NCBI RefSeq assembly: GCF_009730915.1
Contig: NC_052482.1
Location: 3,348,001-3,412,000, forward strand
Origin: Dioscorea cayenensis subsp. rotundata
Taxonomy: Eukaryota; Streptophyta; Magnoliopsida; Dioscoreales; Dioscoreaceae
DNA length: 64,000 nucleotides
Direction: 5' to 3'
The number at the start of each line of letters is the position of its first letter. Position 1 is the stretch's first letter. The notes beneath the pieces were generated by a model. It had not been told where the DNA came from. It made no database searches and saw only the letters and a list, made by a program, of their open reading frames with translations. Below are positions 2,886-63,945 of the stretch, piece by piece. The position numbers and the translations under genes were made by a program.

Positions 2886-3681
2886 GATGAAGTAACTGGT
2901 TCAAGCTCTAGTGAGCTTGGTTGCTAAGTGTGATGATGACGGAGCTGCACATCATCAAGAGAAGCTCTTGGATGAAGTGGAGTTAGGCTTTGTTTTTAGC
3001 GTTGGTTCAGTTGGAGCTGATTGAGCTGGAGCTGGATATTGGAAATCTCATGTTCATGGCAAAAAAATAAACAAACAATTAAATAAATGCCACATTGTAA
3101 AAACATGATATTAATTTTTAATTTAAATTTTCTTAATTTAAATAAGTAATAATATATACATAATATATATATATATATATAAGAGACTATGGGTGGGATT
3201 GGGAATTATAGAGAGAGGGCATGGAAAAAGGGCCGGTCTCTATTTGTAGATTTTGAATATGCTAATGTTCAAAACATTGACTCGTGTGTGTGTGTATATA
3301 CTAATGTTATATCTATACTTATATAAGTGGTTGGGAATAGGAAAATAATGTTTCCAAGGTTATTATGAGTAGTTTTACTGTGAAAACAAATTTATCAAGA
3401 TAATGGGGTTTAATTTAAAATCTTTTGTAAAAATGGAAATACACCCAAAATTTGTTTACAAAATTCTCCAATTTCATTTGTTTGATAGATTGGAAAAATT
3501 AATTATACTCAGAGATAAGAACCTAAAATGTAGTATTCCCACCTATTTTGAGTTCATTAAAGTCCCACTGATTCATGTGATTTATGTCTAGGTAGATGCA
3601 AACCTTAATACAACTGATCTGAATACATCTACATGATTCTCTCTTGCATACTTATCTGAATAAATCCATATTTATCAAAAA

Positions 3682-3860
3682 TAAATAATTATATATTCTT
3701 AATTAATTTTTGATAGAAAATAGATTTTGAGATTTTTTTTTTTTTTGGAGAGATTTTGTGTTATTTAACCAAATAATTATATATCCTTAATTATTTTTTA
3801 ATTGAAAATTGGATTTTGAGATTTTTATTTTATAGATTTTGTGCTCTTTAATCAAACAAA
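3682..3860. repeat. Two-copy tandem duplication, ~88 bp
   Basis: The block AATAATTATATAT(T/C)CTTAATTA, then GATTTTGAGATTTTT, then GATTTTGTG(T/C)T occurs twice in direct orientation, at about 3684-3765 and 3772-3855. The copies differ at several bases and in the length of a T run. The rest of 2900-4480 is plain AT-rich DNA with a TA microsatellite near 3160-3181. Confidence 0.65.
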
Positions 3861-4548
3861 AAGTGGTCTAATTCAAGACCTAAAACTATAGATTATCATC
3901 GTTATTACACCATACCATAAAACAATTGATTCAAGTTATAGCTAAAAGCTTACACCATGACATACAACATTGTAATTATTATTATTGTTTTTTAAATAAT
4001 ATAAATAAATTGTCACAAATACATTTTATTTATGTCTCAATGATACATTGAGAAAAAAGTAAAATTTTTCTTTTATATAATAGTCAAATGTCTTATAATT
4101 TGATTTCACTCTAAAGTCAAAAATTTTAAATAGATTTAAACTTCAGCATAGAAGATTACAGTTATTATTAGGTTTACCTTCTAAGTTAGAGCTTTTATAG
4201 CTTTTTTAAATTATATAAATTTATTTATTTTTTAAACTGGACTATGGATATATATATTCATCTTATTCTTTTTATTTGACATACACAATATTTGATGAGA
4301 CAAGATATATTACATATTTTTACAGATGGAGAGGTGAAAATGAAAAATAGTTGTATAATATGGAAAACTTAATTAAATATTTTTATTTTTTAAATACTAA
4401 ACAACTATTTAATCTTGTCAGAAAAAATTATTTATTTTTAATAAAAACAAAGAACCATTTTTTTCTAATTATTATTATTATCCTTGCTGATGTCGGTGCA
4501 GAGTAGTAAAATCAATAAAAAAATTCAAAAGCCTTTAGCTCGATTAGA

Positions 4549-4566
4549 TCTCTCTCTCTCTCTCTC
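4549..4566 (+). promoter_or_regulatory. CT-repeat in the 5' leader of the methyltransferase gene
   Basis: A pure CT dinucleotide run lies 12 bases before the ATG at 4578. Pyrimidine patches of this kind are common near plant transcription starts and in 5' leaders. Confidence 0.4.
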
Positions 4567-17100: not shown

Positions 17101-17129
17101 ATTTTATGACAAGGTTATATATTCATACT

Positions 17130-18122
17130 ATATTGTTATGATTCATCGGGATAGATATCATATAAGTGAACTAGGTGAACCCAACTCTGTAGCTCGGAGC
17201 CAAATAGGCTCTCGCACTATGTAATTTCATATTTTTGGCAATAATTATTATTTAATTATTGCATTGTTTAGTAATTTCATTTATTTATTTATTTACGTGA
17301 TATTTATGTTTATTTATTTATTTTTTTTATTATTGCATTATTTACTCGGTATCTCTTTTGTATGTATTTCGATTTTTTGCGGGTTTTTAGTACATTTCCA
17401 TTCCTTGCTCACCCAGCTAGGAGGAGTAAGTCCTAGTCATGTGCACATGTTTTCTGTAGTAGCGCTACCGGACATGCGTGTCTGTTCCAACTGCGGTCGA
17501 AGACGCAGCTCCGGCTGTTGATATTCTGTTATGTTCTGACTTCACAGTCAATGATCCGGCTTCGTGTTGTTGATTTCTGTTATCAGTCAGAAGATGTACA
17601 TGTCTGTTTTCTGCGTGTTTCTGTATTTCTGATTATTTCTGTATTCTGTCTGAATTATTAATTATTATGCTCTATCTGTATTATTCTGTTATTTTTTTCT
17701 GCGATCCTACTGGGCCCTTGGGGCTCATGTACTCTGTGAATTTTTTTTTCTTCCATAGGAGAGGATCAAGCTTAGGATCAGTGGGTTGTTCTGGGCTTCT
17801 TCTGTAGTTGTGACTTGTCAGTACCTATTCTTTGAGGTTGTGAACCTTGCATGTTATTTTATTCTGTATGAGTGAGACTTGTATCTTGTTTGTATAATTT
17901 GGCTTGTAAGCTACTTGTGTACCCAGTAGGACTGTCATAGTCCATATTTGTATTATCCTTGTTTCTGTGACTCTATCTGTAGTCAATATTATTATTTCTG
18001 TTCTGCTTGTTAGGGTTGATTCTAACTAGGTCAAATATGAGGCCTTGCACCCAGTGGGGCCCAGTCCCATTGGATGCGGCCGATCTATCAGTGGACCCGG
18101 CTTGTTGGGCTGGGGCGTGACA
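17130..18122 (+). mobile_element. Ty3/gypsy 5' LTR, 3' part (left boundary unresolved)
   Basis: The right end is fixed by the terminal GGGGCGTGACA at 18122, eight bases before a classical primer-binding site. A TATA-like element (TATCATATAAG) lies at about 17158-17168, so the R region may begin near 17175. I do not find an LTR start matching the TGTAATGTCC start of the other LTR copies here, so this LTR is probably truncated on the left. A tract matching 29333-29372 in inverted orientation lies at 17133-17172. Confidence 0.6.
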
Positions 18123-18130
18123 GATTAAAG

Positions 18131-18142
18131 TGGTATCAGAGC
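18131..18142 (+). other. Primer-binding site complementary to initiator tRNA-Met
   Basis: TGGTATCAGAGC is the standard plant LTR-retrotransposon primer-binding site matching the 3' end of initiator methionine tRNA. It follows the LTR end by eight bases and precedes gag by about 120 bases. Confidence 0.9.
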
Positions 18143-18263
18143 TGTTCTTAGATGTCACTCTACTGATTTAACTACTGTCAATCTTTGAAAGTTCTTTCTG
18201 ATAGTGGGTCTGGGTAGTGTAACCAGTTCTAAAGCTCTGTCTGTCTTTTAATCTGCAGAATCA

Positions 18264-18842
18264 TGCCTAGGGGTAGAGGGCGACCTCATAGAGGGCCTGC
18301 AAGCCCACCCTAAGAGCCCATGGACTTGGATCAGGAGGCCCTTGACCAGTCAGATAATGAAGAACAACCGGATCCTGAAACACTGACAGGCATCATGAGG
18401 GAGATGATGCTAATGATGCGTAGTCAGCGTCATCAACATACTTTTGGAGGCAGTCGAGACCTACTGGCAGAGTTTGGACGGCATACACCACCACCGTTCG
18501 AGGGGACTACGAACTTGACAATGGCAGAGTCCTGGATCAGGCAGATAGAGAGGACTTTCCGGGCTAAGCAGAGCCCAGAGGAAGACAAGGTCAGACTGGC
18601 TTCTTTTATGCTTAGAGGCAGTGTAGCTTTGTGGTTTGAGAGTGAACTACGAATCAAAGGTGAGGATGCCCTTAGGACTTGGGAGCAGTTAAAGGAGGTC
18701 TTTAATGCGAAGTACTTCCCATTGAGCCGTCGAGCTCAAATGGAGAGGCAATTCTTAAATCTGAAGAAGGGATCTATGTCTGTAGAAGAGTATGAGGCAG
18801 AATTCGACCGGCTTTCACAGTTTGCACTGTCATTAGTAGAAG
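18264..18842 (+). pseudogene. Ty3/gypsy gag fragment
   Basis: An ATG at 18264 gives MPRGRGRPHRGP and reaches a stop at 18312-18314. The frame continues from 18320 with a retrotransposon-gag domain (PPFEGTTNLTMAESWIRQIE, then SVALWFESE, then FLNLKKGSMSVEEYEAEFDR). Gag forms the virus-like particle that packages the element RNA. The domain is cut at about 18840, where unrelated repeat sequence begins, so the C-terminal zinc knuckle is missing. This gag exists only on the left side; the minus-strand arm lacks it. Confidence 0.85.
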
Positions 18843-19098
18843 ATTCAAGTTCATTCACCAAACCACAATAGTAATAGAACTTTAACATGAAATCAATCCA
18901 TATATATATACTACCAAGATTCATAAGCAAATACAAGTAATAGATAGATGAAAAGCTCACACCAAGAAGATGAATATCGAGAAATGTTGGCTCAACCTCA
19001 CGCACCAGAGCCAAAGATTTCTCCGTAATCAACCATGCCTTTTCTCCAAACAAGAAGTTTTTTTTATAACCCTTCTCTACCTCGTGATAAGCTTACAG
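18840..19098 (+). repeat. Copy 1 (truncated) of an LTR-like repeat, inside gag-pol
   Basis: AGATTCAAGTTCATTCACCA and the following ~250 bases match the two larger copies at 28159-28571 (inverted) and 28938-29325 (direct). The first ~150 bases of the repeat are missing here. It ends at GATAAGCTTACAG, immediately before protease-linked sequence. It replaces the region between gag and protease. Confidence 0.8.
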
Positions 19099-19099
19099 C

Positions 19100-19640
19100 C
19101 TTCTTCCCTCTTCTCACCCAAGCAGTCGTGGGAGGCCGCCACTACGTGGGCCGTGTCTTTGCGATGACGCAGGAGGACGCTGAGGCATCCCACGACGTTG
19201 TGGCATGTATCATTTCAGTGCATTCCTGTTATGCTTGTGCTTTGTTTGATCCTGGTGCTACGCATTCGTTTGTGTCATCATCTTTTGCTCGCAAAAATTG
19301 TTTGTATGTTGTGGATTTGCCGCATGTTTTATGTGTTGCTACTCCTGTGGGAGCGGTGAGAACCGTTAATCGGTTAGCACAAGTATACTCTATTATCATT
19401 GAAGGGCGCGAGCTCTTCGCCGATCTGTATCTGATGAAGCTGCGAGACTATGATGTCATTTTCGGCATGGATTGGCTTTCTTCAGTGTTTGCTGTAGTGG
19501 ACTGTCATAGAAAGAAGATGCACTTCTTTTTTCTTGATCAGGAAGAATTCACCTTCAGTGGCAGTAAGGGGTACGCCTTAGCTCGAGAGATCTCTTCCCT
19601 GCAAGCTCGAGTCGATCTAAGCTGGTCGATTGACTTTCCG
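19100..19640 (+). pseudogene. Gypsy aspartic protease domain (left arm)
   Basis: The frame from 19035 includes the retroviral-type protease motif ALFDPGATHSFVS with the catalytic Asp (about 19247) and a downstream YDVIFGMDWL block. The protease cleaves the gag-pol polyprotein in the particle. The start is fused to the LTR-like repeat, so no proper gag-pol junction remains. The frame is open to about 19826, but from about 19600 it diverges from the other arm (poor match at the LQARVDLSWSIDF region). Confidence 0.85.
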
Positions 19641-19699
19641 GCCTCTGCTTTGCAGGCCACTCGCACCAGATATACAGTGGAGGATGTATTGGTTGTCAG

Positions 19700-20245
19700 T
19701 GAGTTTTTTTATGTGTTTCCTGAGGATCTTCCCGGATTACCTCCTGTGAGAGGTAGAGTTTGCTATCGACCTGGCTCCAGACACAACTCCTTTATCCAAG
19801 GCACCGTACCGGATGGCACCCGTTGAACTAAAGGAACTGAAGAAGCAACCGGAGGAACTGTTGGAGAAAAGGTTTATTCGACCGAGCATGTCACCTTGGG
19901 GAGCCCCAGTTTTGTTTGTAAAAAGAAGGATGGATCTCCGAGGTTGTGCATCGACCACCGTGAGTCGAACAAGGCGATCGCCAAGAATAAATACCCTCCG
20001 CAAAGGATTGATGATCTCTGGACCAGCTTGCAAGGAGCTCAAGTCTTCTCCAAGATTGATCTGCGATCTGGCTATCATCATGTTCGAATCATGGGCGAGG
20101 ACATCCCGAAGAGTGCTTTCCGTACGCGGTATGGTCACTATGAGTTTCTAGTGATGCAGTTTGGTCTGACGAACGGCCCAGCAGTATTTATGGATTTGAT
20201 GAACCGGGTGTTTTCCAGGACTACTTGGATCGATTCGTGGTAAGC
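19700..20245 (+). pseudogene. Gypsy reverse transcriptase, N-terminal part (left arm)
   Basis: The sequence moves through three frames with RT blocks [25 protein letters not shown] and [15 protein letters not shown]. It ends at WIDSW just before the place where the catalytic (Y/F)xDD block should be. Several substitutions against the right arm are T-to-C changes (for example CTG to CCG). The catalytic block is deleted at 20238-20249 (GTGGTAAGCAACTGCATGCG), as in the right arm. Confidence 0.85.
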
Positions 20246-20995
20246 AACTGCATGCGAAGCATCTGAGGATTGTATTGTAGACACTGAGACAACATGAGTT
20301 GTATGCCAAATTTTCCAAGTGTGACTTCTAGCTGATAGTGGGCTTTCGGGGCATGTCATCGGTAAGGATGGAGTTTTTGTGGATCCTAAGAAAGTGGAAG
20401 CAGTCGTGGATTGGAAAAGACCGAGTACGGTCAGAGAGATTTGGAGCTGGCTTAGTCGGGCTACTATCGGAGGTTTGTCTCAGATTTCTCTCGCTTAGCA
20501 AAGATCGCTGATGAGACTAACCCGAAGGCGCCTGCTTCACCCTGGGATCAAGCTTTCAGCGAACGTAGTTTCTCGAATCGCTAGACCTGATTCCGCACCC
20601 GATCCTTGCTCGCTGTAAAGTGGTTGTAGATATGTGATCTATGCCGATGCTTGTAGGATGTGCATGGGGTGTGTTCTCGATGCGTAATGGTCGAGTCATC
20701 GCCTATGTTTCAAGTCAATCGAAACCTCACGAGGAGAATTACCCCACCCATGATCCGTGTTAGCGGCTAGTCATTTTTGCAATCAAGATCCGGAGGCTTT
20801 TTCAGATGGGGAGCCTTGTGAAGTGCATATGCACTATAAGAGTTTAAAGTACATCTTCACCTAGAAGGAGCTTAACATAAGGCAAAGGCGGTGGTTAGAG
20901 CTGATCAAGGATTACGATCTCAGTGTTCACTATCATCCAGGCAAAGGCAATGTGGTGGCTGATGCGCTAAGCAGGAGGTATAATTATGGAACCGC
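20246..20995 (+). pseudogene. Gypsy RT connection / RNase H region, heavily degraded (left arm)
   Basis: The right arm has one open 177-codon frame over the equivalent DNA (26380-26913). Here the same sequence carries many small insertions, deletions and substitutions, so no frame survives. Recognisable islands are GGCATGTCATCGGTAAGGA, the [14 protein letters not shown]-coding block and, from 20930, the [18 protein letters not shown] block in a short open frame. Confidence 0.75.
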
Positions 20996-21049
20996 CGCGG
21001 ATTTGACTGAGCAGAAACCACTTCTAGAGGAGATGATGAGGTTTGAATT

Positions 21050-22541
21050 GGAGGTTGTTCCGCCAAGTTCTGTGGTTTGTCTGGCCAACATGCACATCCG
21101 AACAAATTTACTTCAGAGGATCAAAGAGACTCAGATGCGGGATCCTAAGTTGCAAGAAATCTGTGCTAAACTTCAGCAATGAGAGTTATCTCAGTTCCAA
21201 GTGCATGAGGATGGAATTGTCAGATTTGGAGATCGAGTTTGTGTTCCCGATAATCCTGCTTTGAAGAGATATATTTTGGAGGAGGCTCATTATTCAAGCT
21301 ACATGATCCACCCTGGAGGTACAAAGATGTACAGAGGACTCAAGGAACATTTTTGGTGGAAAAACATGAAGCGTGAGATAGCTACTTTCGTCGCCCACTG
21401 TCTTACTTGCCAGCAGGTTAAAGCAGAGCATCAGAGACCGGCAGGTTATCTTCAGCCATTACCGATACCAGAGTTGAAGTGGGAACATATCACGATGGAT
21501 TTTGTGACTGGTTTGCCCCGTACTCGGCGAAAGCATGAGTCTGTGTGGGTGATTGTGGATCGCCTAACTAAGCCAGCACACTTTCTACCTTTGAAACCTG
21601 GTTTGGGTTTTGAGAAGCTAGCTGAATTATACCTTAGAGAGATTGTTCGATTGCATGGTATTCCTGTGTCAATCACATCTGATCGTGATTCGTGATTCAT
21701 TTCAAGGTTCTGGAGGAGTCTACAATCAGCTTTGGGCACCAGATTGACTTTCAGTACAACTTTTCATCCACAGACAGATGGTCAGTCTGAGAGGACCATT
21801 CAGATTCTAGAGGACATGTTTCGGCCATGTGTCCTCGACATCTCTGATTCATGGGACCCTTATCTGTCTTTGGCGAAGTTTGCTTACAACAACAGTTTCC
21901 AGGCGAGTATTCAGATGGCACCGTACGAGGCTCTCTACGGGCGGAAGTGTCGATCTCCTGTGTGTTGGAGTGATGTGGGAGAGCGGAAGCTGTTGGGTCC
22001 AGAGATGTTGCAGATTGCAGAAGAGAAGGTGAAACTGATCAGGGATCGATTGAAGACTGCTCAGAGCCGACAGAAGAGTTATGCAGACAAGCGTCGCTCA
22101 GACCTAGAATTTCAGGTTGTCGATTCAGTCTTCTTGAGGATATCTCCGATGAAAGGCGTTGTGAGATTTGGAAAACGCGGGAAGCTCAACACGCGTTACA
22201 TCGGACCTTTTAAGATTGTGGAGCGAGGTGGAGCTGTTGCTTATCGCTTGGCTTTACCACCAGATCTAGCTCAGGTCCACAATATCTTTCATATCTCTAT
22301 GCTGAGAAAGTATCTGTCAGATCCATCGCATGTCATTCAGTATGAACCAGTGGAGCTTCAGAAGAATCTGTCTTATGAAGAGCAATCAGCAGAATTTCTG
22401 GCTTACAAAGAGCAACAACGAGGAAACCGAGTGATTCCATTGATCAAGGTCAGATGGAGCAACCACTCCCATGATGAAGCCACCTGGGAACGAGAAGCCG
22501 ACTTGTGGGATCGCTATCCAGAGTTGTTCCCTGACTCTTGA
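21050..22541 (+). pseudogene. Gypsy integrase with chromodomain (left arm)
   Basis: In order: an HHCC zinc-binding domain (SYMIHPGGTKMYRGL, then CLTCQQVK), the catalytic core with the first Asp in HITMDFVTGLPRT, a second region SITSDRDS, a conserved FHPQTDGQSERTIQ block with the Glu, the GPFKIVERGG region, and a C-terminal chromodomain (RVIPLIKVRWSNHSHDEATW) ending at a stop at 22539-22541. The chromodomain and initiator-tRNA primer site place the element in the chromovirus (Tekay/Del-like) group, which targets heterochromatin. A TGA stop at 21693-21695 interrupts the core and is also present in the other arm. Otherwise this is the cleaner integrase copy. Confidence 0.88.
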
Positions 22542-22578
22542 TGCGAGTTTAGAGGACTAAACTCCATTTAGTGGGGAT

Positions 22579-23575
22579 TGTAATGTCCACTGAGTGAGAA
22601 TTCATACTTTGACTAAGAATAATTTGTGAGTGAGCCCCACCTTTGTCTCTTTGCCCTTAATTTCAGATCTTGTCTGCCTGATGAGAATTATTGGAGTCTC
22701 ATAATTGAGATTTTGGATGCTTTTTAAAAGGCTTTATCTATTAAAACCAAATCATTCTTCTTTCAAAAACTCTCTCCTCCTGAAAAGCAACTCAACCTAG
22801 GGTCGATTCTTTTTCAATTTCTTCTCTCTTGAAACTTGGATTCTAAGAGGATCTTTTCACCAGCAAGCTTAGAGGTAGGCTTAATTTTACTGAAATTCTG
22901 AGAATTTCCTTGCCTTGTTTTAATTATTTTGTTGGTGTTAAAGCATATTTTTATAATCTCTTGTGTTGAGCATGTTGAATCCATGAATTCTTTGTGGACC
23001 TCTTTAGCATGGTTAAACCTTGGTTGATTTCATGTTAATATTTTATTTTACTTGAGTGTTTATACTTGGTTGTTAAGTTAATTTTATAATACCTTGTGTT
23101 GAGATGATTAGATGATAATTATGTTTAGTTTGTATTTGGAATTTTTATGTTGCCTGTGAGATTACCTCTTGAGTATTCTGCATGTTATATCCTTGTTGCT
23201 TGAATCATATGCTGGTCAAAATTTTAGTTTGATTTATAATTGTTGTTAATATGAGTATATATATATATATATAATCATGCTTTTAATGAGGTTCTGAAGG
23301 TTGTTTGACTTTAAGTTTCTGAATTTTATTAAAATGCAAATCATGCTATTTTATTATTTATTTTATGGTCAATATTTTTTTTGGTTGGGTTTTTGAATTC
23401 TTATTATAGAGGTTTAATTGTGTAAACATATATATGTTTATATATATATATAGGTATGCATGCATGTATGCATGTCAGGCTTTAGAAATCTTTTTCTTTT
23501 TCCTTGAGAATTTATCCACTTTCTGGCAATTTATTTTATTGAATTTATTTTTTTAGTATCATTTTATGTTTGTGT
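22579..23575 (+). mobile_element. Gypsy 3' LTR, truncated at the palindrome hinge (left arm)
   Basis: A purine-rich tract (AGTGGGGAT) is followed by TGTAATGTCCACTGAGTGAG, the LTR start. About 1 kb of LTR follows, including a TTTTTAAAAGG TATA-like site near 22723 and microsatellites (TA near 23255, ATGC near 23457). The LTR stops at the hinge and never reaches the GGGGCGTGACA end seen at 18122. Confidence 0.85.
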
Positions 23576-23637
23576 AGACATATAGAGTGAGAATTTATTT
23601 TTTTAGTATCATTTTTAGTATCACTTTATTTTATTGA
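23576..23637. other. Hinge (spacer) of the palindrome
   Basis: Sixty-two bases separate the arms. The spacer repeats pieces of the adjoining arm: GAATTTATTTTTTTAGTATC occurs in the left arm (23541-23560) and again at 23591-23610, and AGTATCACTTTATTTTATTGAA resembles arm sequence in another order. Short copied pieces of this kind look like template switching at the turn-round point. Confidence 0.7.
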
Positions 23638-24652
23638 ACACAAACGATAAAAGTGATACTAAAAAAATAAATTCAATAAAATAAATTGCCAGAAAGTGGA
23701 TAAATTCTTAAGAAAAAGGAAAAAAGATTTCTAAAACCTGACATGCATACATGCATGCATACCTATATATATATATATATATAAACATATATATGTTTAC
23801 ACAATTAAACCTCTATAATAAGAATTCAAAAACCCAACCAAAAAAAATATTGACCATAAAATAAATAATAAAATAGCATGATTTGCATTTTAATAAAATT
23901 CAGAAACTTAAAGTCAAACAACCTTCAGAACCTCATTAAAAGCATGATTATATATATATATACTCATATTAACAACAATTATAAATCAAACTAAAATTTT
24001 GACCAGCATATGATTCAAGCAACAAGGATATAACATGCAGAATACTCAAGAGGTAATCTCACAGGCAACATAAAAATTCCAAATACAAACTAAACATAAT
24101 TATCATCTAATCATCTCAACACAAGGTATTATAAAGCTATAAAATTAACTTAACAACCAAGTATAAACACTCAAGTAAAATAAAATATTAACATGAAATC
24201 AACCAAGGTTTAACCATGCTAAAGAGGTCCACAAAGAATTCATGGATTCAACATGCTCAACACAAGAGATTATAAAAATATGCTTTAACACCAACAAAAT
24301 AATTAAAACAAGGCAAGAAAATTCTCAGAATTTCAGTAAAATTAAGCCTACCTCTAAGCTTGCTGGTGAAAAGATCCTCTTAAAATCCAAGTTTCAAGAG
24401 AGAAGAAATTGAAAAAAGAATCAGCCAAGGTTGAGTTGCTTTCAAGGAGGAGAGAGTTTTTGAGAGAAGAATGATTTGGTTTAATAGATAAGCCTTTTAA
24501 AGCATCCAAAATCTCAATTATGAGACTCCAATAATTCTCATCAGGCAGACAAGATCTGAAATTAAGGGCAAAGAGACAAAGGTAGGGCTCACTCACAAAT
24601 TATTCTTAGTCAAACTAGTCAAAGTATGAATTCTCACTCAACAGACATTACA
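23638..24652 (-). mobile_element. Gypsy 3' LTR, truncated at the hinge (right arm)
   Basis: This is the reverse complement of the left-arm LTR fragment. On the minus strand it begins TGTAATGTCTGTTGAGTGAG at 24652 and runs to the hinge. A C10 run at 24655-24664 (about G5 in the left arm) precedes it, another sign of poor local consensus. Confidence 0.85.
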
Positions 24653-24699
24653 ATCCCCCCCCCCTAAATGGAGTTTAGTCCTCTAAACTCGCATCAAGA

Positions 24700-26130
24700 G
24701 TCAGGGAACAACTCCGGATAGCGATCCCACAAGCTCCGCCTCGCTCCCTGTGTGGCTTCATCATGGGAGTGGTTGCTCCATCCGACCTTGATCAATGGAA
24801 TCACCTCTGTCCTCGTTGTTGCTCTTTGTAAGCCGTGAAATTACTGCGATTGCTCTTCATAAGATGCATTCTTCCTAAGCTCCAATCGGTTCATACCGAA
24901 TGACATCGCGATGGATCCGCGATGATACTTTCTCAAAGATAGAGATATGAAAGATATTGTGGACCTGAGCTAGATCTGGTGGTAAAGCCAAGCGATAAGC
25001 AACAGCTCCAACTCGCTCCACAATCTTAAAAGGTCCGATGTAACGCGTGTTGAGCTTCCCGCGTTTTCCAAATCTCACAACGCCTTTCATCGGAGATATC
25101 CTCAAGAAGACTGAATCGACAACCTGAAATTCTAGGTCTGAGCGACGCTTGTCTCGCGATAACTCTTCTCGCTCTGGGCCCGAAAGTGCCTTCAATCGAT
25201 CCCCCGATCGGGCTCACCTTCTCTCTCGCAACTCGCAACATCTTCGACCCAACAGCTTCCGCTCTCCCACATCACTCCAACACACAGGAGATCGACACTT
25301 CCGCCCGTAGAGAGCCTCGTACGGTGCCATCTGAATACTCGCCTGGAAACTGTTGTTGTAAGCAAACTTCGCCAAAGACAGATAAGGGTCCCATGAATCA
25401 GAGATGTCGAGGACACATGGCCGAAGCATGTCCTCTAGAATCTGAATGGTCCCTCTCGGGACCGACCATCCGTCCCTGCGATGAAAAAGTTGTACCGAAA
25501 GTCAATCGGCGCCCAAAGTCGATCAGACTCCTCCAGAACCTTGAAATGAATCACGAATCACGATCAGATGTGATTGACACAGGAATACCATGCAATCGAA
25601 CAATCTCTCTAAGGTATAATTCAGCTAGCTTCTCAAAACCCAAACCAGGTTTCAAAGGTAGAAAGTGTGCTGGCTTAGTTAGGCGATCCACAATCACCCA
25701 CACAGACTCATGCTTTCACGAGTACGGGCAAACCAAATCACAAAAATCCATCGTGATATGTTCCCACTTCAACTCGTATCCCAGAATGGTCAAGATAACC
25801 CGCCGGCCTCTCGATGCTCGCTTTAACTCAGCTGGCAAGTAAGACAAAGGCTGACTTTAAAGTAGCTATCTCACGCCTCATGTTTTTTTCCACCAAAAAT
25901 GTTCCTCGAGTCCTCTCAGACATCTTGTACCTCCAGTGTGGATCATGTAGCTTGAATAACGAGCCCCTCCAAAATATATCTCTTCAAAGCTGGATTATCT
26001 GGAACACAAACTCGATCTCCAACCGACAATTCCATCCTCACGCACTTGAACCGAGATAACTCTCATCGTCAAGTTTAGCATGCATTTTCGCAACTTAGGA
26101 TCCCGTCATCCGAGTCTCTTTCGATCCTCC
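24700..26130 (-). pseudogene. Gypsy integrase with chromodomain, heavily degraded (right arm)
   Basis: The equivalent left-arm DNA is mostly open. Here it is broken by dozens of small indels and substitutions. Recognisable fragments include RSDLEFQVVDSVFLRISPMK, the GPFKIVERVG block, DSWDPYLSLAKFAYNNSF and the integrase core in very short frames. The same TGA stop as in the left arm is present. Many differences change CAG to CGG or CGAG relative to the left arm. Confidence 0.8.
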
Positions 26131-26379
26131 TCAAGTAAATTTGTTCTGATGTGCATGTTGGCCGTGACAAACCACAGAACTTGGCGGAACAACCTCCAAT
26201 TCAAACCTCATCATCTCCTCTAGAAGTGGTTTCTGCTCAGTCAAATCCGCGGCGGTTCCATAATTATACCTCCTGCTTAGCGCATCAGCCACCACATTGC
26301 CTTTGCCTGGATGATAGTGAACACTGAGATCGTAATCCTTGATCAGCTCTAACCACCGCCTTTGCCTTATGTTAAGCTC

Positions 26380-26913
26380 CTAGGTGAAGATGTACTTTAA
26401 ACTCTTATGGTCTGTGTACACTTCACAAGGCTCCCCATACAGAAAAAGCCTCCAGATCTTCAGTGCAAAAATGACTGCTGCTAACACCAGATCATGGGTG
26501 GGGTAATTCTCCTCATGAGGTTTCAATTGACTTGAAACATAGGCAATGACTCGACCATTCTGCATCAGAACACACCCCATGCCTGTCCTACAAGCATCAC
26601 TGTAGATCACATATCTACAACCACTTTCTGGCAGAGCAAGGATCGGTGCAGATACGAGTCTACGCTTCAATTCCAGGAAACTCTGTTCACAAGCTTCAGT
26701 CCAGGTGAAACGGGCACCCTTCCGGGTTAGTCTCATCAACGATGCTGCTAAACGAGAGAAATCCTGAGCAAACCTCCGATAGTAGCCAGCTAAGCCAAGA
26801 AAGCTCCAAATCTCTCTGACTGTACTCGGTCTTTTCCAATCCACGACTGCTTCCACTTTCTTAGGATCCACAAAAACTCCATCCTTACTGATGACATGCC
26901 CCAAGAAAGCCAC
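26380..26913 (-). pseudogene. Gypsy RNase H domain (right arm, open frame)
   Basis: An open frame of 177 codons starts [20 protein letters not shown] and continues through the RT thumb/connection ([17 protein letters not shown]) into RNase H with [33 protein letters not shown] and [11 protein letters not shown]. RNase H removes the RNA strand during reverse transcription. The frame ends at a TAG at the KYIFT end, where intact elements continue. It is the clean counterpart of the degraded 20246-20880 in the left arm. Confidence 0.85.
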
Positions 26914-26987
26914 ACTATCAAGCTAGAAGTCACACTTGGAAAATTTGGCATACAACTCAAGTTGTCTCAGTGTCTACAATACAATCC

Positions 26988-27440
26988 TCAGATGCTTCGC
27001 ATGCAGTTGCTTACCACGAATCGATCCAAGTAGTGCCGAAACACCCGGTTCATCAAATCCATAAATACTGCTGGGCCGTTCGTCAGACCAAACGGCATCA
27101 CTAGAAACTCATAGTGACCATACCGCGTACGGAAAGCACTCTTCAGGATGTCCTCGCCCATGATTCGAACATGATGATAGCCAGATCGCAGATCAATCTT
27201 GGAGAAGACTTGAGCTCCTTGCAACTGGTCCAAGAGATCATCAATCCTTTGCAGAGGGTATTTATTCTTGACAGTCACCTTGTTCAACTCACGGTAGTCG
27301 ATGCACAACCTCAGAGATCCATCCTTCTTTTTGACAAACAAAACTGGGGCTCCCCAAGGTGACATGCTCGGTCGAATAAACCTTTTCTCCAACAGTTCCT
27401 CCGGTTGCTTCTTCAGTTCCTTTAGTTCAACGGGTGCCAT
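26988..27440 (-). pseudogene. Gypsy reverse transcriptase, N-terminal part (right arm)
   Basis: The frame is open from [13 protein letters not shown] (ATG at 27440) through [54 protein letters not shown] and RHYLDRFVV. It then runs into SNCMRSI and a stop at 26988. The catalytic FIDD-type block that should follow FVV is absent, because of the same deletion as in the left arm, so this enzyme could not work. Confidence 0.9.
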
Positions 27441-28158
27441 CCGGTACGGTGCCTTGGATAAAGGAGTTGTGTCTGGAGCCAGGTCGATAGCAAACTCTAC
27501 CTCTCACAGGAGGTAATCCGGGAAGATCCTCAGGAAACACATAAAAAAACTCACTGACAACCAATACATCCTCCACTGTATATCTGGTGCGAGTGGCCTC
27601 TGAAACAGAGGCCAGAAAGCCAATGCAACCACTGTTAATCAGCTTCTGAGCTTGCAGGGAAGAGATCTCTCGAGCTAAGGCGTACCCCTTACTGCCACTG
27701 AAGGTGAATTCTTCCTGATCAAGAAAAAAGAAGTGCATCTTCTTTCTATGACAGTCCACTACAGCAAACACTGAAGAAAGCCAATCCATGCCGAAAATGA
27801 CATCATAGTCTAGCAGCTTCATCAGATTCAGATCGGCGAAGAGCTCGCGCCCTTCAATGATAATAGAGTATACATGTGCTAACCGATTAACGGTTCTCAC
27901 CGCTCCCACAGGAGTAGCAACACATAAAACATGCGGCAAATCCACAACATACAAACAATTTTTGCGAGCAAAAGATGATGACACAAACGAATGCGTAGCA
28001 CCAGGATCAAACAAAGCACAAGCATAACAGGAATGCACTGAAATGATACATGCCACAACGTCGTGGGATGCCTCAGTGTCCTCCTGCGTCATCGCAAAGA
28101 CACGGCCCTGTGTAACTGGCCTCCCACGGCCTGCTGGGTGAGAAGAGGAAGAAGACTG
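27427..28158 (-). pseudogene. Gypsy aspartic protease domain (right arm)
   Basis: The sequence is open from about 28221 on the minus strand. It contains ALFDPGATHSFVSSSFARK with the protease active-site Asp, then VIFGMDWLSSVFAVVD. It matches the left arm with a few substitutions over about 19100-19600 and retains a more normal linker (LINSGCIGFLASV) where the left arm is disturbed. It overlaps the start of the RT frame at 27427-27440. Its upstream end is fused to the LTR-like repeat. Confidence 0.88.
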
Positions 28159-28571
28159 TGTAAGCTTATCCTGAGGTAGAGAAGGGTTATAAAAAAAACT
28201 TCTTGTTTGGAGAAAAGGCATGGTTATTCTGGAGAAATGCTGGCCTGGCTGTGAGGTTAGGCCAACATTTCTCAGTATTCATGCTACTGGTGCGAGCTTT
28301 TCATCTATCTATTACTTGTATTTGCTTATGAATCTTGGTAGTATATATATATATATATGGATTGATTTCATGTTAAAGTTCTATTACTATTGTGGTTTGG
28401 TGAATGAACTTGAATCTTTTCTTTCTAATAAGAGTAGTAATCATTTGCAGCTCTGAGAGTTATTATTGATTGAATATAATGGAGCGTGTTTTGGTGGAGA
28501 ATTATTGTTTAGATCTATAAATCTGCATTGATATTGGTGAGATTTGTTACTTGAGCTTTAAATCTATTACA
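28159..28571 (+). repeat. LTR-like repeat, copy 2 (inverted relative to copies 1 and 3)
   Basis: On the plus strand it starts TGTAAGCTTATCC and ends CTATTACA, so it has TG...CA ends and 5-bp inverted termini (TGTAA/TTACA), as expected of an LTR of about 400 bp. It contains a TA run near 28345. Its first ~260 bases lie within the palindrome. The last ~150 bases extend beyond it. Confidence 0.65.
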
Positions 28572-28937
28572 TTAAACAACTCAAAAGCAACTTTAGCAAC
28601 CTCGAATTCAAACAAATTACTAGCAGATTTCTCTTGTTCTCCGACTTTAATATCCTTTTCAGTATTCTTGAGAATGAGCACATCATCCTATTACTGGTCT
28701 TAAAACTTGTTGATCTTCAATAGATGTTGAAATAGTGGTAAGTGATTGGGTATCAATAACGAGGTTAGTCTCTTCAACTAACCTGTCCGAGTTTTCAAAT
28801 GCTCATGCACTAGTAATTGGAGATATCTAATCAAAATGAGAAGATGATGCAGAGAATTGTTGTTGAGCTAGGCGTGCAATAATTCTATCCATTTCATCCA
28901 TGAAGGGAGTGAGTAGAGAATGCAACGAAAGCACCAA
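28572..28937 (-). other. Spacer with a possible retroelement leader and gag start
   Basis: Read on the minus strand, the end of copy 3 is followed at once by TTGGTGCTTTCGTTG, a primer-binding-site-like sequence. A short open stretch follows from about 28911 (MDEMDRIIARLAQQQFSASS) to a TAG. I do not recognise the protein. The rest is AT-rich with stops. The spacer would be the internal region of a small LTR element whose two LTRs are in opposite orientation. Confidence 0.4.
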
Positions 28938-29325
28938 TGTAATAGATCTAAAGCTCAAATAACATATTTCACCAATATCAACACAGATCTATAGATCTAA
29001 ACAATAATTCTCCACCAAAACAAGCTCCATTATATTCAATTGAGAATAATTCTCAGAGCTGCAAATGATTATTAATCTTCTCATAAACAAAAGATTCAAG
29101 TTCATTCACCAAACTACAATAGCAATAGAACTTCAACAGGAAATCAATCCATATACTACTAAGATTTAAAGATATATGACAAGCTCACACCAGTGCTAGC
29201 ATGAACACTGAGAGCCCTTTTCCTAACCTCATGGCCAGGTCAACATTCCTTCAGAATAACCATGCCCTTTATCCAAGTAACCAGTTTCCTTTTATAACCC
29301 TCCTCTGCCTCGGGATAAGCTTACA
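28938..29325 (-). repeat. LTR-like repeat, copy 3
   Basis: The plus strand starts TGTAATAGATCT and ends AAGCTTACA. It is the reverse complement of copy 2 with scattered differences. Its minus strand (TGTAAGC...CTATTACA) is the LTR orientation that leads into the primer-site-like sequence. Both copy 2 and copy 3 are preceded at their TGTAAGC end by GACTG. Confidence 0.65.
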
Positions 29326-29905
29326 CAGTCCATTTATATAATATCAATCCCGATGAATTATAACATATACCCCTCAATACATGCTTAAATTATTATAACT
29401 ATGTCATAATACAACATTAGATTAAACCAACTACATATCATCTAGACCTCATTCAACCCAAAAGCTCAAACAGATTGGATGAAAGGACATGGCTTATACA
29501 TTCATGTTCGTCTTTACCAATGTCAACTATTAGCTACTCTAATAATACGTCTAATACAGGATAAGCATCTTCATTTATTCTCTTAGAAAAATCAATAATA
29601 TATTCAAGACCTCAGTGCTTTATGACATTAATCTAATTCATATTATATTATTATATTTTTAAGATCGCAAAGCCAAGCTTGTATTTATGGTTCAAAACTT
29701 GGTTTGCTTTCTCCAGCATCAGCACACTGTTAGGTTCAAGGTTTAGGAATTATCAATCAGTGTTTTGAGGTGTCAATAGAACAAAGTATAATAGTTTTAG
29801 ATGCTTGTTTGGCCTAAAACCAGACAACTTTGCATTCTTACCTAGAGATTGCAACAAGAACTAAGAACTTGTTCTCTGTTTCAAGAATTTGCAGTCATGC
29901 GAATG
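29326..29905. other. Right flank of the retrotransposon complex
   Basis: The first ~45 bases (29333-29372), read on the minus strand, match 17133-17172 in the left gypsy LTR (GTTAT(A/G)ATTCATCGGGAT, then a TATA-like site). Homology fades within ~100 bases. The rest is AT-rich without a gene. Confidence 0.5.
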
Positions 29906-50800: not shown

Positions 50801-53800
50801 TTAGTAAAAAGTGAAATCTTATGTTGCAGTCAACTTGTTTTTATATATATTGAATATGGCAAAAGAGTTATATCCTATTTCCTTTGAACCCTTAGATAGT
50901 ACTTCATGCTAATGGTCTTTTCATGACTAGGATAATTTTGTCGTGCAGTTCTTTACCACTGAACCTTTTGCATGTGATCCCTCAAGTCTTCCAAAATATC
51001 CTCCAAGCAAAGAGATGGATGCTAAAAGAAGGGATGAAGAAGCCAGGAGGTATGTGTCATCATTTGTCTTGTAAATCTGCATGTTGTCCATGCTTGACTT
51101 TGTCTCAGAAGTGGCTTTTTTCCTTTCTCTTTTTCCCTTTGACAATGCCTTCTTCGTTGTTAATTACACTGACATTTTAGAAAATTGCCAGGAAACATAC
51201 TTGTTGAAGCTTTTAAAGCAACCATCAAGATAAATGTCATAGGCTTTTACCACTTGGTTACTCTTAAATTGAACAGAGAGATGGGATGTTTTTACCGAAC
51301 ACCATATATTTTCCTTTTAATTTGTCTAATTAAAAATTGTATTAACATTGTGAAGATATCAAATACAAGTTTTACTAAAATAGGTTATGGTCTTTCATTG
51401 TCCTTCTTGGTTGGGAACAAACTTCCAAATCTTCTGGTGATGGTAAATTATCCAACGCTTTGATGCATTTCTAAAAGGAAATGTACTATACATTATTTCA
51501 AGTGAAGAATATCCACAATTAAATATTATAAGTTTTGCAATTAAAACGAACCATTCATATACTAGAGTAACATCAATAGTTATTGGTGCTCAGGAGTTGA
51601 AGATAACAGACTGAAATAGTAGATAGTCTAATTTCCTCTGGTCAAAATTCTTTATTCCATGTGATCCTTGGCAGCTGGTAGCTGGAAATTGGTAAAGTTT
51701 AGTTGCATTATTATTTTACTGGTCAAAGGCTCAAGCATCACTTTAATGAACAAACCGGTTGGGTGGGATTTATTGAACTGAAATATGTGTTTATGACTAT
51801 ATCCTGAAAGCTTAGTGGGACTGAGATAAGAAATGCCTGAGATAAAGACCAGCGCTTTTAATGATTCTAATTTTCGAAATGATATTTTCATGTTATATTC
51901 CTGTACTTTCAGATGCCTTTGTTCCCATATTATAGTGTTTGTTTTGGAAACACCAATGCATTAATGTTGTAAATACTCAGAAATATGACATTGAAATCTA
52001 AGGTTTTACTTTTATGGTTTACTCTTCGCTGATGTATGGATGTTCAACATAGAAAATCAATTATCCAGCTTCTATTTACTTTACTCTATGAGTGCCCATT
52101 ATAATCTTTGGTATAGTTATTTTTAGAGAAGGTGGTTTACACATGTTGAGAATTTGCATTCATGAATTTAGGCTAAGAGCCGCTGGTGGAAAAGGCCATG
52201 GAGATGGAGGAAAGAAGACTCGTCGTGATCGTCCTGCTAGGGCAGCTCCCGTCCCAGAGGCTAATGCTGAACTTCAAGCAAATCTTGATGTATGGCATAT
52301 GCTGCTACCTCCAACTGTATCTTTTCCTTTATTTCATTTTTATTTTCAGTTAATCATAGTAGTCAACAAGCTTGAAGATTATCATGCACTGATCTTTTGT
52401 GGGGATGATCGATTCAAATTTTGTGAAACAAAAAAAATAAAATAAAATAAAAATCACGTCACTTCATGAAGCCTGTTTACCTGGATCCTCACCAAAGCAA
52501 AAAGGGAACATTTTGGATAATTAAATGTCTATTTATTTGGAAAGTTATTGGTAATAATTCAAATATTGTACAAAATTAAAGGGCTATTATATACTCATCG
52601 AGAATGATAAAGGCTTGTTCATTTCTCAAGCTATCATGCTATATATAGGTATTTATTTGACACTGAACATGGGCTGCTATTATTACCTGACATGGTTTAG
52701 ATTTAGAAGTTGTCCAGGAATTGAAATAATGTGTTTAGTTATTAGATTTAGGTTGATAATTTCTAGTTTAAGGAATGTTTTTCTTCTGTTTGGAGTCAAA
52801 CTTTGCTTGAATAAGTTCTTGATTCTCTATAAAAAGAGGGATAAGTCTTCTTTGGGATTAAATGAATTATTTTCAGTTTTTGTTAGCTTAATGCTATATT
52901 TTAAGGTGTGCTTGTCTTTTCTTCTAAGGTTGATTGCTTAAATTCTCTAAGTGGGATTATCTCGAAGCCTCGGTGTGATTGCCTAACTTACCCTGCATCA
53001 GTTTGGTATTAAGAGCCAATACAGTGTCTACTCGCCCAGGAAGAACATAGTGAGGGAAGTTAACTTATCTTCAATGTGATCTTAGTTGAACAGGTGGAAA
53101 ATATCAATGCTTGTTTCAAATATCTAAATCAAAGTTATAACAAATTATGAGCAAGTCTTATCAGAGAATCAATCAGAGTTGATAATGAAGGTGAAAAGAT
53201 TGTTGAACTAGGGGAAATAGCTTATAGATCAACAATCTAACTCTTTACTAGAACAAGAGATTGAGATTAAAACCTTGTCAAGTATCCCAAGTTCTATTAA
53301 AATATTCGACTTGAGGGGTTCTATTGCTCTCAATCTCTTACTCTACTAAAACTTAGATTGTTGACCTGTAAGCTTTCCCCCCGGTGCATCAGTCTTCTCA
53401 CCTTCGTCATCATTTTTCACTTGATTCTCCAACAAGATTTGTTATAGAATTAGTTATAATTTGCTTTAACTATGACCTTAAATGAGTGTTGAAGATAAGT
53501 TAACTTCTCTCGATATGTTGTTGGCTCTTGATACCAAACTGATGCAGGATAAGCTAGGCAATCACACTTAGGATTTCTAGGTAATCACACCCAGGGAATT
53601 TAAGCTGTCAAACTTGGAAGAAAATACAAGCATGCCTTAAACATAGCATAAGATTACAAAAATAATAATAATAATTCATTTAATTCTTAAGAAGGCTACC
53701 AAAAAAATAAAAAATAAATAAAAATAAATAAAAAAATAAAGTAAAATTCATTTAAGCTAGAACTTATCTCGACTTTTAGACTTACTAAGAAATTCTACTT

Positions 53801-55098
53801 ATAATGATTATCCTACTGTTCCACTAACAACATGTTGAAGATTAGTTAAATTCTCTCGCTATGTTCTTCCTGTGTGAGTAGACATTATGTTGGCTCTTGG
53901 TACTAAACCGATGCAAGATATGCTAGGAAACCACACCTAGGGTTTATAGGCAATCACGCCTAGAGAATATGAGAAGTCATGCTCAGAGAAATGGACAATC
54001 TCGCCTAAAAATATAGCATTAATTTAAAAATAAAAACCAAGAATGATTCATTTAATTCCTAAAAAGACCCTTATTTCTCTTATAACGAATCAAGAACTTG
54101 TCCTAGCAATGTTTGTCTCCAAACAGACAAAAAGAATTATTTAAACTAGAACTTATATACTTATTGATCAACTCAACTTATAATGATTTTCAAAACAAAC
54201 CCATTAGATATGACACACTTAGGCAGGACAAAAACTGAAATGACCAAACTATTAATAATGAAACACAAGATTTTAATTTTTCGGCAACTTCTAAACCTAA
54301 AACATGCCAACTAATAATAGTGGCCCATGTTTTGCATCAAATTTTCTGCCTGCTTCAATAATATTTGAACCTAACCAATTGGAGCTTAGCTTCAAATTTT
54401 ACTAAAGATGCATGGTAGTTTATGCTTGCATTTGGATTGCAAGTGATATGTTCCTTTTGGAGGTCAACATTAGCTTTTAGTAAATCATAGTATTTTTCTG
54501 GTGGGAGTGTAACTGTGCCAATCACTTGGCTTTCTATTTCCCTGATTTATAACTTCTATATTTTGATTCATAAATTTCTACCAGACAAAGATCCCATCCA
54601 TTTTGCTCCTGCTGTACAAAGCCCTATAGCAATATGAATATAATCACTACATTCTCACTACTTTTGGTGAGAAAAAGATGTTTATTCCATCTGTTAGTTT
54701 GCTGGCTTGTTTCATCACTGATATGTTCTGAGTGGACTATTCTTTGTTTGTTTAAATGAAGTTATGAATCAAGTCACATCCTCTTGTTTCTATTCTGAAA
54801 ACAGAGGAGGCGCCTTATTTCTCATGCAAATGCAAAGTGCAAGAGTGAGAAGTTTCCACCTCCGCACCAAGATGGTGCACTTGGCTTCCCTGTGGGTTCT
54901 TCGCATTATATGGATCCTCCAGGCTATGATCTTCCTGATACTTCTTCTTTCAGCACTATATTTCCCTCCCAGAAAGGGGCATCTCTCTCTACTTGGTCTG
55001 GGCCTTTAGTAGATCCTGCTGGTGTTGGCCATCCAAAGAGAAAGAAACATTCGGCCAAGGAGATTCATAAAGACAAGACTAATATTCGGGCAAGATAA
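47814..55098 (+). CDS. CDK-like serine/threonine protein kinase (At1g54610/IBS1-like group)
   Basis: Seven exons: 47814-48146, 48213-48497, 48576-48893, 50147-50374, 50949-51049, 52172-52289, 54805-55098, giving 558 residues with consistent phases. The N-terminus MGCVIGK fits N-myristoylation at Gly2 with a palmitoylatable Cys3, so a membrane-attached kinase is likely. The kinase domain starts at YEKLDKIGQGTYSNVYKARD. The catalytic Lys is K135 (VALKK), the catalytic loop HRDIKGSN has Asp230, DFG is at 248-250, and TSRVVTLWYRPPELLLG follows. The CDK-type C-lobe continues through ATYYGVGVDLWSAGCILAEL to FFTTEPFACDPSSLPKYPPS. A basic, Ser/Pro-rich tail of ~170 residues follows, as in this plant group. 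Cyclin binding is not established for it. All catalytic residues are present. Introns 3 and 6 are long (1.25 and 2.5 kb). Confidence 0.95.
52935..53975. repeat. Retroelement edge fragments, inverted, inside kinase intron 6
   Basis: GATTGCCTAACTTACCCTGC, then ATCAGTTTGGTATTAAGAGCC (52980-53020), is the reverse complement of GGCTCTTGATACCAAACTGA, then TGCAGGATAAGCTAGGCAATC (53524-53564). The arms extend inwards through GTTAACTTATCTTCAA, CAAGAGATTGAGA and GATCAACAATCTAA pairs, with a ~50-base centre near 53300. A third, partial copy lies at 53881-53960. The TTTGGTAT(T/C)AAGAGCC part resembles a primer-binding site next to an LTR end, so these are probably LTR/leader pieces of a small retroelement. 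They do not disturb the splice sites. Confidence 0.65.
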
Positions 55099-61699: not shown

Positions 61700-63589
61700 A
61701 TATAGGGTTGAAGAGAGATCCAATTATGGTTGAGGAGAGAGAAAGAAAAGGCTATATATATATATATGTTTAACTTATATAGTTGGATTTGAGTCTAAGT
61801 TTAGAATGCATTAGTTTTATTTCATTGTTTGATGAGATGTTAAAATTATATTGACTTCTAAACAAAGCTATTTTCCATCTATGCATGCATGGATGATTAA
61901 CTACTAATTAAAAATTTTATATATCTTTAAATAAAATTTTCTAATAAAACTTTCTTTTATGATATTATCATTCTAATTAAATGGATTATATGTTCTTATA
62001 TATTTATGTCTTTATTTCCATTCATCAATAAAGATTATCCTTAATTTATAAATGTCAAAACATTTTGTGATTTTAATATTCTTTTGTGTTTAATTTGTTT
62101 AGTTAAATGATTCTAGGATCACATATTTTTAAAATTTAAATTTAAATTATATTTCAGTTTAGTTAAACTCGCAATTTCAATGTTGAAGATTTTATTGTTT
62201 ATCATTATTTATATCTTTTAAAAACTAATTTACTCCTTAAGACATTTGTTTTTAAAGATAATGTGTGTGCTTATAATTAGTTATCAATATTTGGATAATA
62301 ATTAAAAAAATCACTTGAGATATACATCTACAATGACAATATATTTGAGTTTATGTATTATCAATGACCAATTTTTTTTTAATTCATGAATAAAAATAGT
62401 TAAGCCTCAGTTAATTTCAATTTTTTTAATTTTTTTTAATTTTTTAACTCATCAACCTTTGGGGGAAAAATTACTAACCACCCATTCTTTTTTTGGAATA
62501 TCTCATAACCCTTGATTTAATTTTAAATAAAAAGTCAGCAATTTTTTTGCTAAGCTTGCTGCCAAAATATAACATAATCATAAGAAAAATGTGTAAATTT
62601 GCTTTTTTTTTTTTAATTTCAGTTGAACATATATATATTGAGAGAGATATGGAGATAGAGTTTTATATATATAACAACATGCATGTCCCTCTAAATCACT
62701 CAATTTCTCAAAACCCCCTTCAAATTTATCAAATTTGTCAAAACTCCTGATTTTCAAAAAATTTATTTTTTTAATTTATATTAATTTAAAATTACAAAAT
62801 TTCTAATAAATTAGTTCTTCTATTAAAATATGCCAGGAGTACCTATGCCAAGAGTACTTTGGATGTTCTATTAAAATATTTAAAAGATAGAACCCCATAA
62901 AAAAAAAAAATGAGGATTAGAAGGTAAATGAAAAAGAACCATGATAATAATGAAATATAGTGTATGTTAAGTTCAAAAAATTTGCAGAAATTATATCTGG
63001 CTAATAAATTTTCCTTCCATACAATAATTTTAGATGAGAGATGTAATTTCTTCACAGAAGATCCACAAACAACACATTTAAACAATATTATAAATAATAC
63101 AAGTTTGAGAACAATTGATGAATACTATATATATCATACATAATGTTAGGTTTCAACTTTGCACTTGTTCATCCACTGCCCAAGTGACAATCCTCTAAAT
63201 TGTTCAGTGGTTATCATATATATATATATATATATATATGCAAGTTTCCATCCACTGTATACAAAATATAGCATAAGATATCTAAATGATTGCTATGGTA
63301 TGTTAAACATGGTTGTGTCACACTATTGGTTTAATAAACAAGTTACGCAACTCTTGTTTCTCATTTATTAAAGGAATTGTATTTAATAAAACAATCAATA
63401 TGTTTTTTTTTTGAACATATGCCCCTATTTGAAAATCTCATAATTTAATATATATCTTTTTAAAAGTTGTAATATCTTAGTATAATTCCAATGTCTATTT
63501 TGAGGAAAAGTAAATTTACTAACCCTGAGGAGCATAGCAGAAAATATTGACTTTTAGCATGTCTATGATACGTATAATATTTTTTACTT
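61700..63589. other. AT-rich intergenic sequence
   Basis: TA microsatellites occur near 61754-61766 and 63214-63239. Several low-complexity open frames are unsupported. I see no gene. Confidence 0.5.
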
Positions 63590-63945
63590 ATCTATTTTAA
63601 TTTAATATAATTAAATATTTAAATTTAATATAATTAATTCACATATTTAATTATAATAATCAAAATAATAATAGTTAAAAAATAATGATGTTTAAATTAT
63701 TTTATTATGTTAATCAATATGTAAATATGTTGTTATAATTTAAATAATTATAACTAATTAATTATTTAAAGTAATAATTTTTTATTAACATATAATTACT
63801 TAACAAAAATAAAAAGTTTTCACTTATAAAAATAATTTAAATATCATTATTTTTTAATTATTATTTATTTGAAATTAATATAATTAAATTTATTAACTAA
63901 TTATATTAATTTCAAATATTAATTAAATATAAAAAGGGGTAATAT
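63590..63945. repeat. AT-rich foldback element
   Basis: TAGTTAAAAAATAATGATGTTTAAATTATTTT at about 63672-63702 is matched in reverse complement at 63826-63862. The similarity continues outward through TTAATTATA(A/T)TAAT and AATATAATTAATT blocks, giving imperfect arms of roughly 100 bases around a ~120-base centre. It may be an AT-rich MITE, but I see no clear target duplication. Confidence 0.5.

Follow-up and report, generated by a model that had tools for sequence, protein, structure and literature searches.

How a single defective retrotransposon came to stand as a 9.6-kb palindrome, and whether this palindrome is present in the plant or only in the assembly, is the question raised by a 64,000-nt stretch of the genome of Dioscorea cayenensis subsp. 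rotundata (C12:3348001-3412000; this whole stretch is called the window below). Judged from the sequence, the palindrome is probably real and young, and would have arisen by template-switching DNA synthesis (snap-back) at the insertion of a Ty3/gypsy element. The window, which contains no N over its whole 64,000 nt, was compared with itself using blastn, and the two arms were subjected to a global alignment. The genome searched comprised 584,211,761 bp in 2249 contigs, and for arms and flanks up to 40 candidates were scored per search.

Extent and parts of the palindrome

One inverted self-match was obtained at 18840-28418, with 92.4% identity over 9753 columns. Its arms, A on the left and B on the right, measure about 4.75 kb each and were identical in 4352 of 4869 columns of the global alignment, with 358 substitutions and 55 gap blocks. 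Ten identical runs of at least 100 bp were counted (longest 266 bp), and the differences were clustered between these runs. The innermost inverted words are located at 23568-23575 and 23638-23645, leaving a spacer of 62 nt. An origin of the palindrome by chance is excluded. The parts are as follows, in window coordinates:

17129-17168, no strand: outer end of the left arm (terminal inverted repeat 1, TIR1) of a host inverted-repeat element, separated by the retrotransposon from the inner portion of that arm; matches 29369-29331 at 87.5% over 40 bp
17167-18122, plus strand: sole long terminal repeat (LTR) of the retrotransposon (TG...CA), from the sequence; LTR copies are up to 89% alike
18263-18844, plus strand: gag, first part only, with one in-frame stop, broken at 18839-18844; homology to other copies stops at 18844
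18840-18844, no strand: junction 2, gag to host piece, with the 5-bp microhomology AAGAT read in both sources
18840-19100, minus strand: host piece 28154-28418 copied in reverse, outer end of arm A, by sequence comparison
19096-22541, plus strand: arm A pol, starting within the gag-pol region, frame broken; Pfam protease, reverse transcriptase (RT), integrase zinc finger and SH3 in pieces
22542-23575, plus strand: arm A 3' non-coding region, lacking 9 bp at 22614 and 8 bp at 23082 compared with arm B and other copies
23576-23637, plus strand: hinge spacer of 62 nt, which follows on from arm A in the alignment to copy C193
23638-24693, minus strand: arm B 3' non-coding region, from the arm alignment
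24694-28153, minus strand: arm B pol, reversed, frame broken; Pfam protease, RT, RNase H and SH3 in pieces
28154-28158, no strand: junction 1, host element to pol, with CAG or CAGTC in common; repeated in arm A at about 19096-19100
28154-29369, no strand: remainder of the host inverted-repeat element (TIR1 28154-28573, TIR2 28936-29369), by inverted match

For the coding check, 10 stop-free pieces of gag and the arms were run against Pfam, and all except one gave a match. Retrotrans_gag was matched on the piece 18314-18871, and protease, RT and a Tf2-1-type SH3 domain were matched in pieces from both arms. For RNase H the match came from arm B and for the integrase zinc-binding domain from arm A, the piece of a single arm having been run for each of these two domains. 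The chromodomain (PF00385) reached an E-value of 1.1e-4 at 22.5 bits, under the Pfam cut-off of 25.1. The order protease, RT, RNase H, integrase along the arms fits a Ty3/gypsy chromovirus, integrase being recognized by its zinc-binding and SH3 domains only, and the element is presumably an LTR retrotransposon of this type. The sequence TGGTATCAGAGC at 18131-18142 is taken to be a primer-binding-site-like motif.

With Ty3/gypsy chromoviruses the element has in common Gag, protease, RT, RNase H, the integrase zinc finger, SH3, a weak, sub-threshold chromodomain match and a TG...CA LTR; unlike them, it lacks a 3' LTR and about 577 internal bp between gag and pol, and carries pol in two inverted copies. 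Four copies elsewhere have gag, then 575-589 bp more, then pol, and the 3' end of the arms corresponds to sequence about 365 bp before the LTR in copy C193. A pair of LTRs with a target site duplication was looked for and not found at the locus, where one LTR is present and ATAAG stands on the left side only, as is expected for a rearranged copy. The family is large, with at least 40 and at least 44 matches in two genome searches.

A first-pass annotation, made from the letters of the sequence, had described a 9.6-kb palindrome with a spacer of about 62 bases, formed by one defective gypsy element. The palindrome and spacer were recovered (18840-28418 and 23576-23637), and a single element is supported by the best relatives of the left LTR-gag part and of the arms, which share loci (C12, C20, C15, C121). 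The arms had also been called near-perfect, which applies after clustered error-like differences are discounted and fails on the raw identity. They had been assigned to the retrotransposon over their whole length; this is correct except for the outer ~260 bp of each, which belong to the neighbouring host inverted-repeat element. From the domains said to be common to both arms (protease, RT, RNase H, integrase, chromodomain), protease and RT were confirmed in both, together with SH3; RNase H and the zinc finger were seen in one arm each, and the chromodomain stayed sub-threshold. A truncated LTR in the arms is not supported: the LTR family matches 17167-18122, and the self-comparison of the window gave no match of that stretch to the arms.

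Among 51 loci with other copies (some overlapping or identical), inverted repeats of at least 150 bp were detected only in L016 and L058, at 70-81% identity. At L016, positions 3071-4566 hold clustered, overlapping inverted repeats (70-81% alike) next to another copy of the element. A second inverted pair within 20 kb was not seen by eye among the matches listed.

Junctions, hinge and a proposed template-switch path

To judge from the sequence, the retrotransposon material sits within the left arm of the host element. TIR1 at 28154-28573 matched 29330-28936 in inverted orientation at 80.7%, and the TIR2 match continues directly into 17129-17168. Since 17129-17168 and 28154-29369 together rebuild one element across the insertion, the left and right flanks are natural neighbours. 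About 2 bp of target sequence have been lost where the element is inserted; ATAAG, a possible 5-bp target site, is present on the left only. The host piece runs unbroken into the right flank and into no other, and its continuity with that flank alone indicates that it was copied into arm A. The host element appears to be of the fold-back type with terminal repeats of about 430 bp; relatives were located on C4, C1271, C18 and C6, their outer ends at nearly the same position.

Both joins carry microhomology, as is expected of template switching (AAGAT; CAG or CAGTC). At junction 2, copies of gag read AAGAT and then diverge, and the host source, read leftwards from 28418, likewise gives AAGAT. 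The overlap at junction 1, which is about 2 bp away from the site of insertion, amounts to 3-5 bp, depending on the original base of the element (CAGTC in 1 of 6 copies, CAGCC in 5 of 6). Shared bases at a join are expected by chance at about 0.5% for at least 5 bp and about 5% for at least 3 bp. In the hinge region the similarity to C193 is about 60-65% (by eye). Because the alignment of the spacer to this copy continues on from arm A, the turn has the appearance of a native strand that reversed direction around a 62-nt loop. For the same reason, an adapter or another foreign insert at this point was considered and rejected.

The arms derive from one source, having junction 1 and 80 private substitutions in common. 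The polarity of substitutions was determined for both arms with 11 other copies as judges, over 2595 strict columns per arm. The 80 common substitutions comprised G>A 24, C>T 22, T>C 6 and A>G 0, the remainder being transversions, and on this spectrum they are read as ordinary C>T/G>A decay. As both arms carry the same decay substitutions, one copy would have been duplicated late.

Three origins had been proposed in the first-pass annotation. Fold-back replication or template switching fits best and is preferred because of the junction microhomologies, the host DNA copied into the far arm and the flanks that belong to one interrupted host element. An artefact from fold-back reads is doubtful and is weighed below. 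Plain end fusion leaves the ~260-bp host piece at the outer end of arm A unexplained. In the template-switch path, a host end on the right, with its break a few bases at most from the edge of the retrotransposon, would anneal by CAG(TC) to the pol region. The growing strand would copy pol and then the 3' non-coding region, after which the new strand would snap back on its own sequence over the 62-nt loop. Copying itself, this strand would run back along pol, cross junction 1 and extend over ~260 bp of host DNA before its end finally joined the broken gag on the left by AAGAT. Such a one-strand path would account for the host DNA in arm A, for the absence of ~577 internal bp and the 3' LTR, and for the position of junction 1 at the insertion boundary. 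From these features we infer the order of steps, a pathway resembling microhomology-mediated break-induced replication (MMBIR) or alternative end joining, and a start at a half-finished integration.

Arm differences and rival origins

Substitutions present in one arm only, read on the plus strand of the window, were led by T>C (30 of 108 in A, 20 of 73 in B), followed by C>T (18 and 11). At clean isolated sites, T>C made up 10 of 15 in A and 9 of 13 in B, with A>G at 2 and 0 and C>T at 1 and 0; in this count 77 substitutions remained undecided. CAG/CTG words were altered in 43 of 129 cases, compared with 40 of 522 for six words without such C/G context (Fisher p 1.5e-12); for four CG-bearing words, 15 of 165 were altered. 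The concentration at CAG/CTG would be explained by a basecaller not trained on plant-type (CHG) methylation, and the error type points to a nanopore platform. Most arm differences thus appear to be sequencing miscalls and not evolution, so that the raw identity of 92% is not readable as age. An age estimate from arm divergence was accordingly discarded: the one-arm changes oppose the direction of decay and concentrate at CAG/CTG. Biological A-to-G editing was rejected as well, as the differences are accompanied by garbled indel clusters at these words.

A few differences look genuine. The 9 bp missing from arm A at 22614 are present, fully or nearly, in arm B and six distinct copies, and the 8 bp missing at 23082 are present in arm B and in all three copies alignable there; both losses fall between short repeats in otherwise identical surroundings. 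The 3' non-coding sites were judged by eye, L023/L045 and L024/L042 being the same copies and L050 misaligned. In addition, five clean arm-specific changes run in the direction of decay (19179, 20107 and 22638 in B; 21819 and 22762 in A). Together, deletions and decay-type sites suggest two real sequences.

The strongest rival is an assembly artefact: a fold-back long read would have entered the contig, one arm would not be genomic, and what separates the arms would be strand-specific miscalls made on one and the same copy. We consider it unlikely, if well short of negligible. It is favoured by the largely technical nature of the arm differences, by error-type changes running in the same direction in both arms, by the confinement of errors to the arms as opposed to the LTR-gag flank, and by the frequency of fold-back reads, which an excerpt of PMC12870357 puts at ~0.55-0.6% for genomic nanopore reads from the samples studied there. 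The reads described in the excerpt resemble the window palindrome in near-symmetry and a small hinge gap; unlike them, the window palindrome exits into two different, mutually neighbouring flanks, one of them via a microhomology junction. Junction 2 with its 5-bp microhomology should exist in some molecule, since an assembler joining a read end would not create it. With arm A as the only native arm, the position of junction 1 at the insertion boundary would have to be a coincidence. The 8- and 9-bp deletions specific to arm A also speak against the artefact, and the read platform it presupposes is deduced from the error type.

The direction of errors was assessed by comparing changes of CTG to CCG/TCG with changes of CAG to CGG/CGA. 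As an initial hypothesis, this direction had been taken as proof of a fold-back read. In pol of non-palindromic copies, ratios of 4:1 (L015), 2:7 (L017), 2:0 (L018), 1:4 (L019) and 4:4 (L020) were obtained, with a total of 0 or 1 in each of L004, L011, L012, L013, L014 and L016; in the LTR/gag set, L038 gave 5:1 and each other copy a total of at most 3. Counting any alteration in both arms, CTG (26 of 69) and CAG (17 of 60) did not differ significantly overall (p 0.35; arm A p 0.62, arm B p 0.026). The hypothesis was abandoned on these two grounds: because the non-palindromic L015, L017 and L038 lean similarly, the direction of errors does not decide between a real palindrome and an artefact. 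Error-type changes at CAG/CTG words, often one-sided, were observed in L015, L017, L018, L019, L020 and L038, and repeat copies in this assembly may be under-corrected and poor for dating.

Several observations weigh against a real palindrome formed by template switching. Error-type changes on the window strand stand at 5:1 in each arm, the lean expected of one-direction reads. Microhomology of more than 0-1 bp was not seen at the hinge (by eye). The LTR-gag flank, compared after five loci had been excluded as repeats of other copies, is free of the excess found in the arms (gag, 472 columns: A>G 0, T>C 0, C>T 6, G>A 6; LTR, 818 columns: A>G 2, T>C 3, C>T 7, G>A 7), and arms rich in miscalls beside such a flank point to unusual read support under the arms. 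The genuine-looking differences are few and may include consensus faults, T>C changes at 22843 and 22908 of arm A fall outside CAG/CTG words, and one-arm substitutions are more numerous in A (108) than in B (73). Real palindromes are themselves read poorly, a drop in accuracy past the junction being reported for nanopore reads through inverted duplicates in the excerpted text of PMC7229812.

A merger of two haplotypes differing by an inversion into one contig, giving a false palindrome, is very unlikely. The small number of genuine-looking arm differences would suit it. Against it, no second near-identical copy of flank or arm was found in the genome among the matches listed, and the lack of N together with the natural sequence of the hinge makes a continuous molecule across the hinge likely. 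Two independent insertions of the same family, meeting by chance in opposite orientation, can practically be dismissed despite the size of the family, as the arms share junction 1, the host piece, a ~35-bp deletion relative to other copies and the 80 private substitutions, and are 92-93% identical to each other against 89-91% to the next copy among the matches listed.

Three further self-complementary stretches were recorded in the window. Positions 2577-2900 (324 bp) are self-reverse-complementary at 81.7% without a spacer, 52666-54331 holds nested direct and inverted repeats (73-81% alike) with a self-inverse centre at 53125-53468, and 63578-63933 is self-reverse-complementary at 77-80%.

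Relation to known inverted duplications

If the palindrome is real, it offers a complete base-level view of a retrotransposon insertion becoming a long palindrome whose arms include host DNA, a kind of structure from which small-RNA silencing of a transposon family has been proposed to arise. If it is not, the locus illustrates that a false palindrome can take on an old, diverged appearance through miscalls at sites of plant methylation.

A limited literature search led to work on Drosophila inversions and to no gypsy palindrome of this build; such a case may already be in print. A close parallel is Mu killer of maize, a partial transposon present as an inverted duplication, for which a fold-back transcript has been proposed as a source of small RNAs. 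According to the excerpt of PMC3440606, Mu killer is derived from the DNA transposon MuDR, its transcription is proposed to start from a flanking gene, and its centre resisted polymerase chain reaction and sequencing. The window locus, known from DNA alone, shares with it the inverted duplication of a partial transposon. It differs in that the element is of gypsy type, that its own LTR lies upstream, that the arms are longer (~4.75 kb) and that both of them include host DNA.

The inverted duplicate of a family member stands beside a putative promoter, with the LTR at 17167-18122 directly upstream and in the right orientation. All 15 copies examined have 21-mers in common with the arms (17 to 702 each), which ordinary copies would also share. 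It is conceivable, if improbable, that the locus acts as an LTR-driven hairpin gene. The LTR would then drive a transcript running from gag through arm A and the 62-nt loop into arm B, an RNA with ~4.7 kb of double strand. Small RNAs from it would be directed against its own gypsy family and against the host inverted-repeat element, a piece of which is in both arms. Such a locus would be the gypsy equivalent of Mu killer, formed during integration by a single template-switch event.

Inverted duplications formed by template switching, through MMBIR or origin-dependent inverted-repeat amplification (ODIRA), are well documented; the excerpt of PMC10766186 gives junctions with little or short microhomology and, for ODIRA, a spacer of 40-80 nt. 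An inverted triplication of the ODIRA type was not found, two arms only being present within the window, and ODIRA-like short inverted repeats at the hinge were not seen by eye in two related copies, which are only ~60-65% alike there. The window palindrome differs from the duplications of that account in being local to one transposon insertion, and agrees with them in its length, the short microhomology of its junctions and its short spacer, the 62 nt falling within the ODIRA range.

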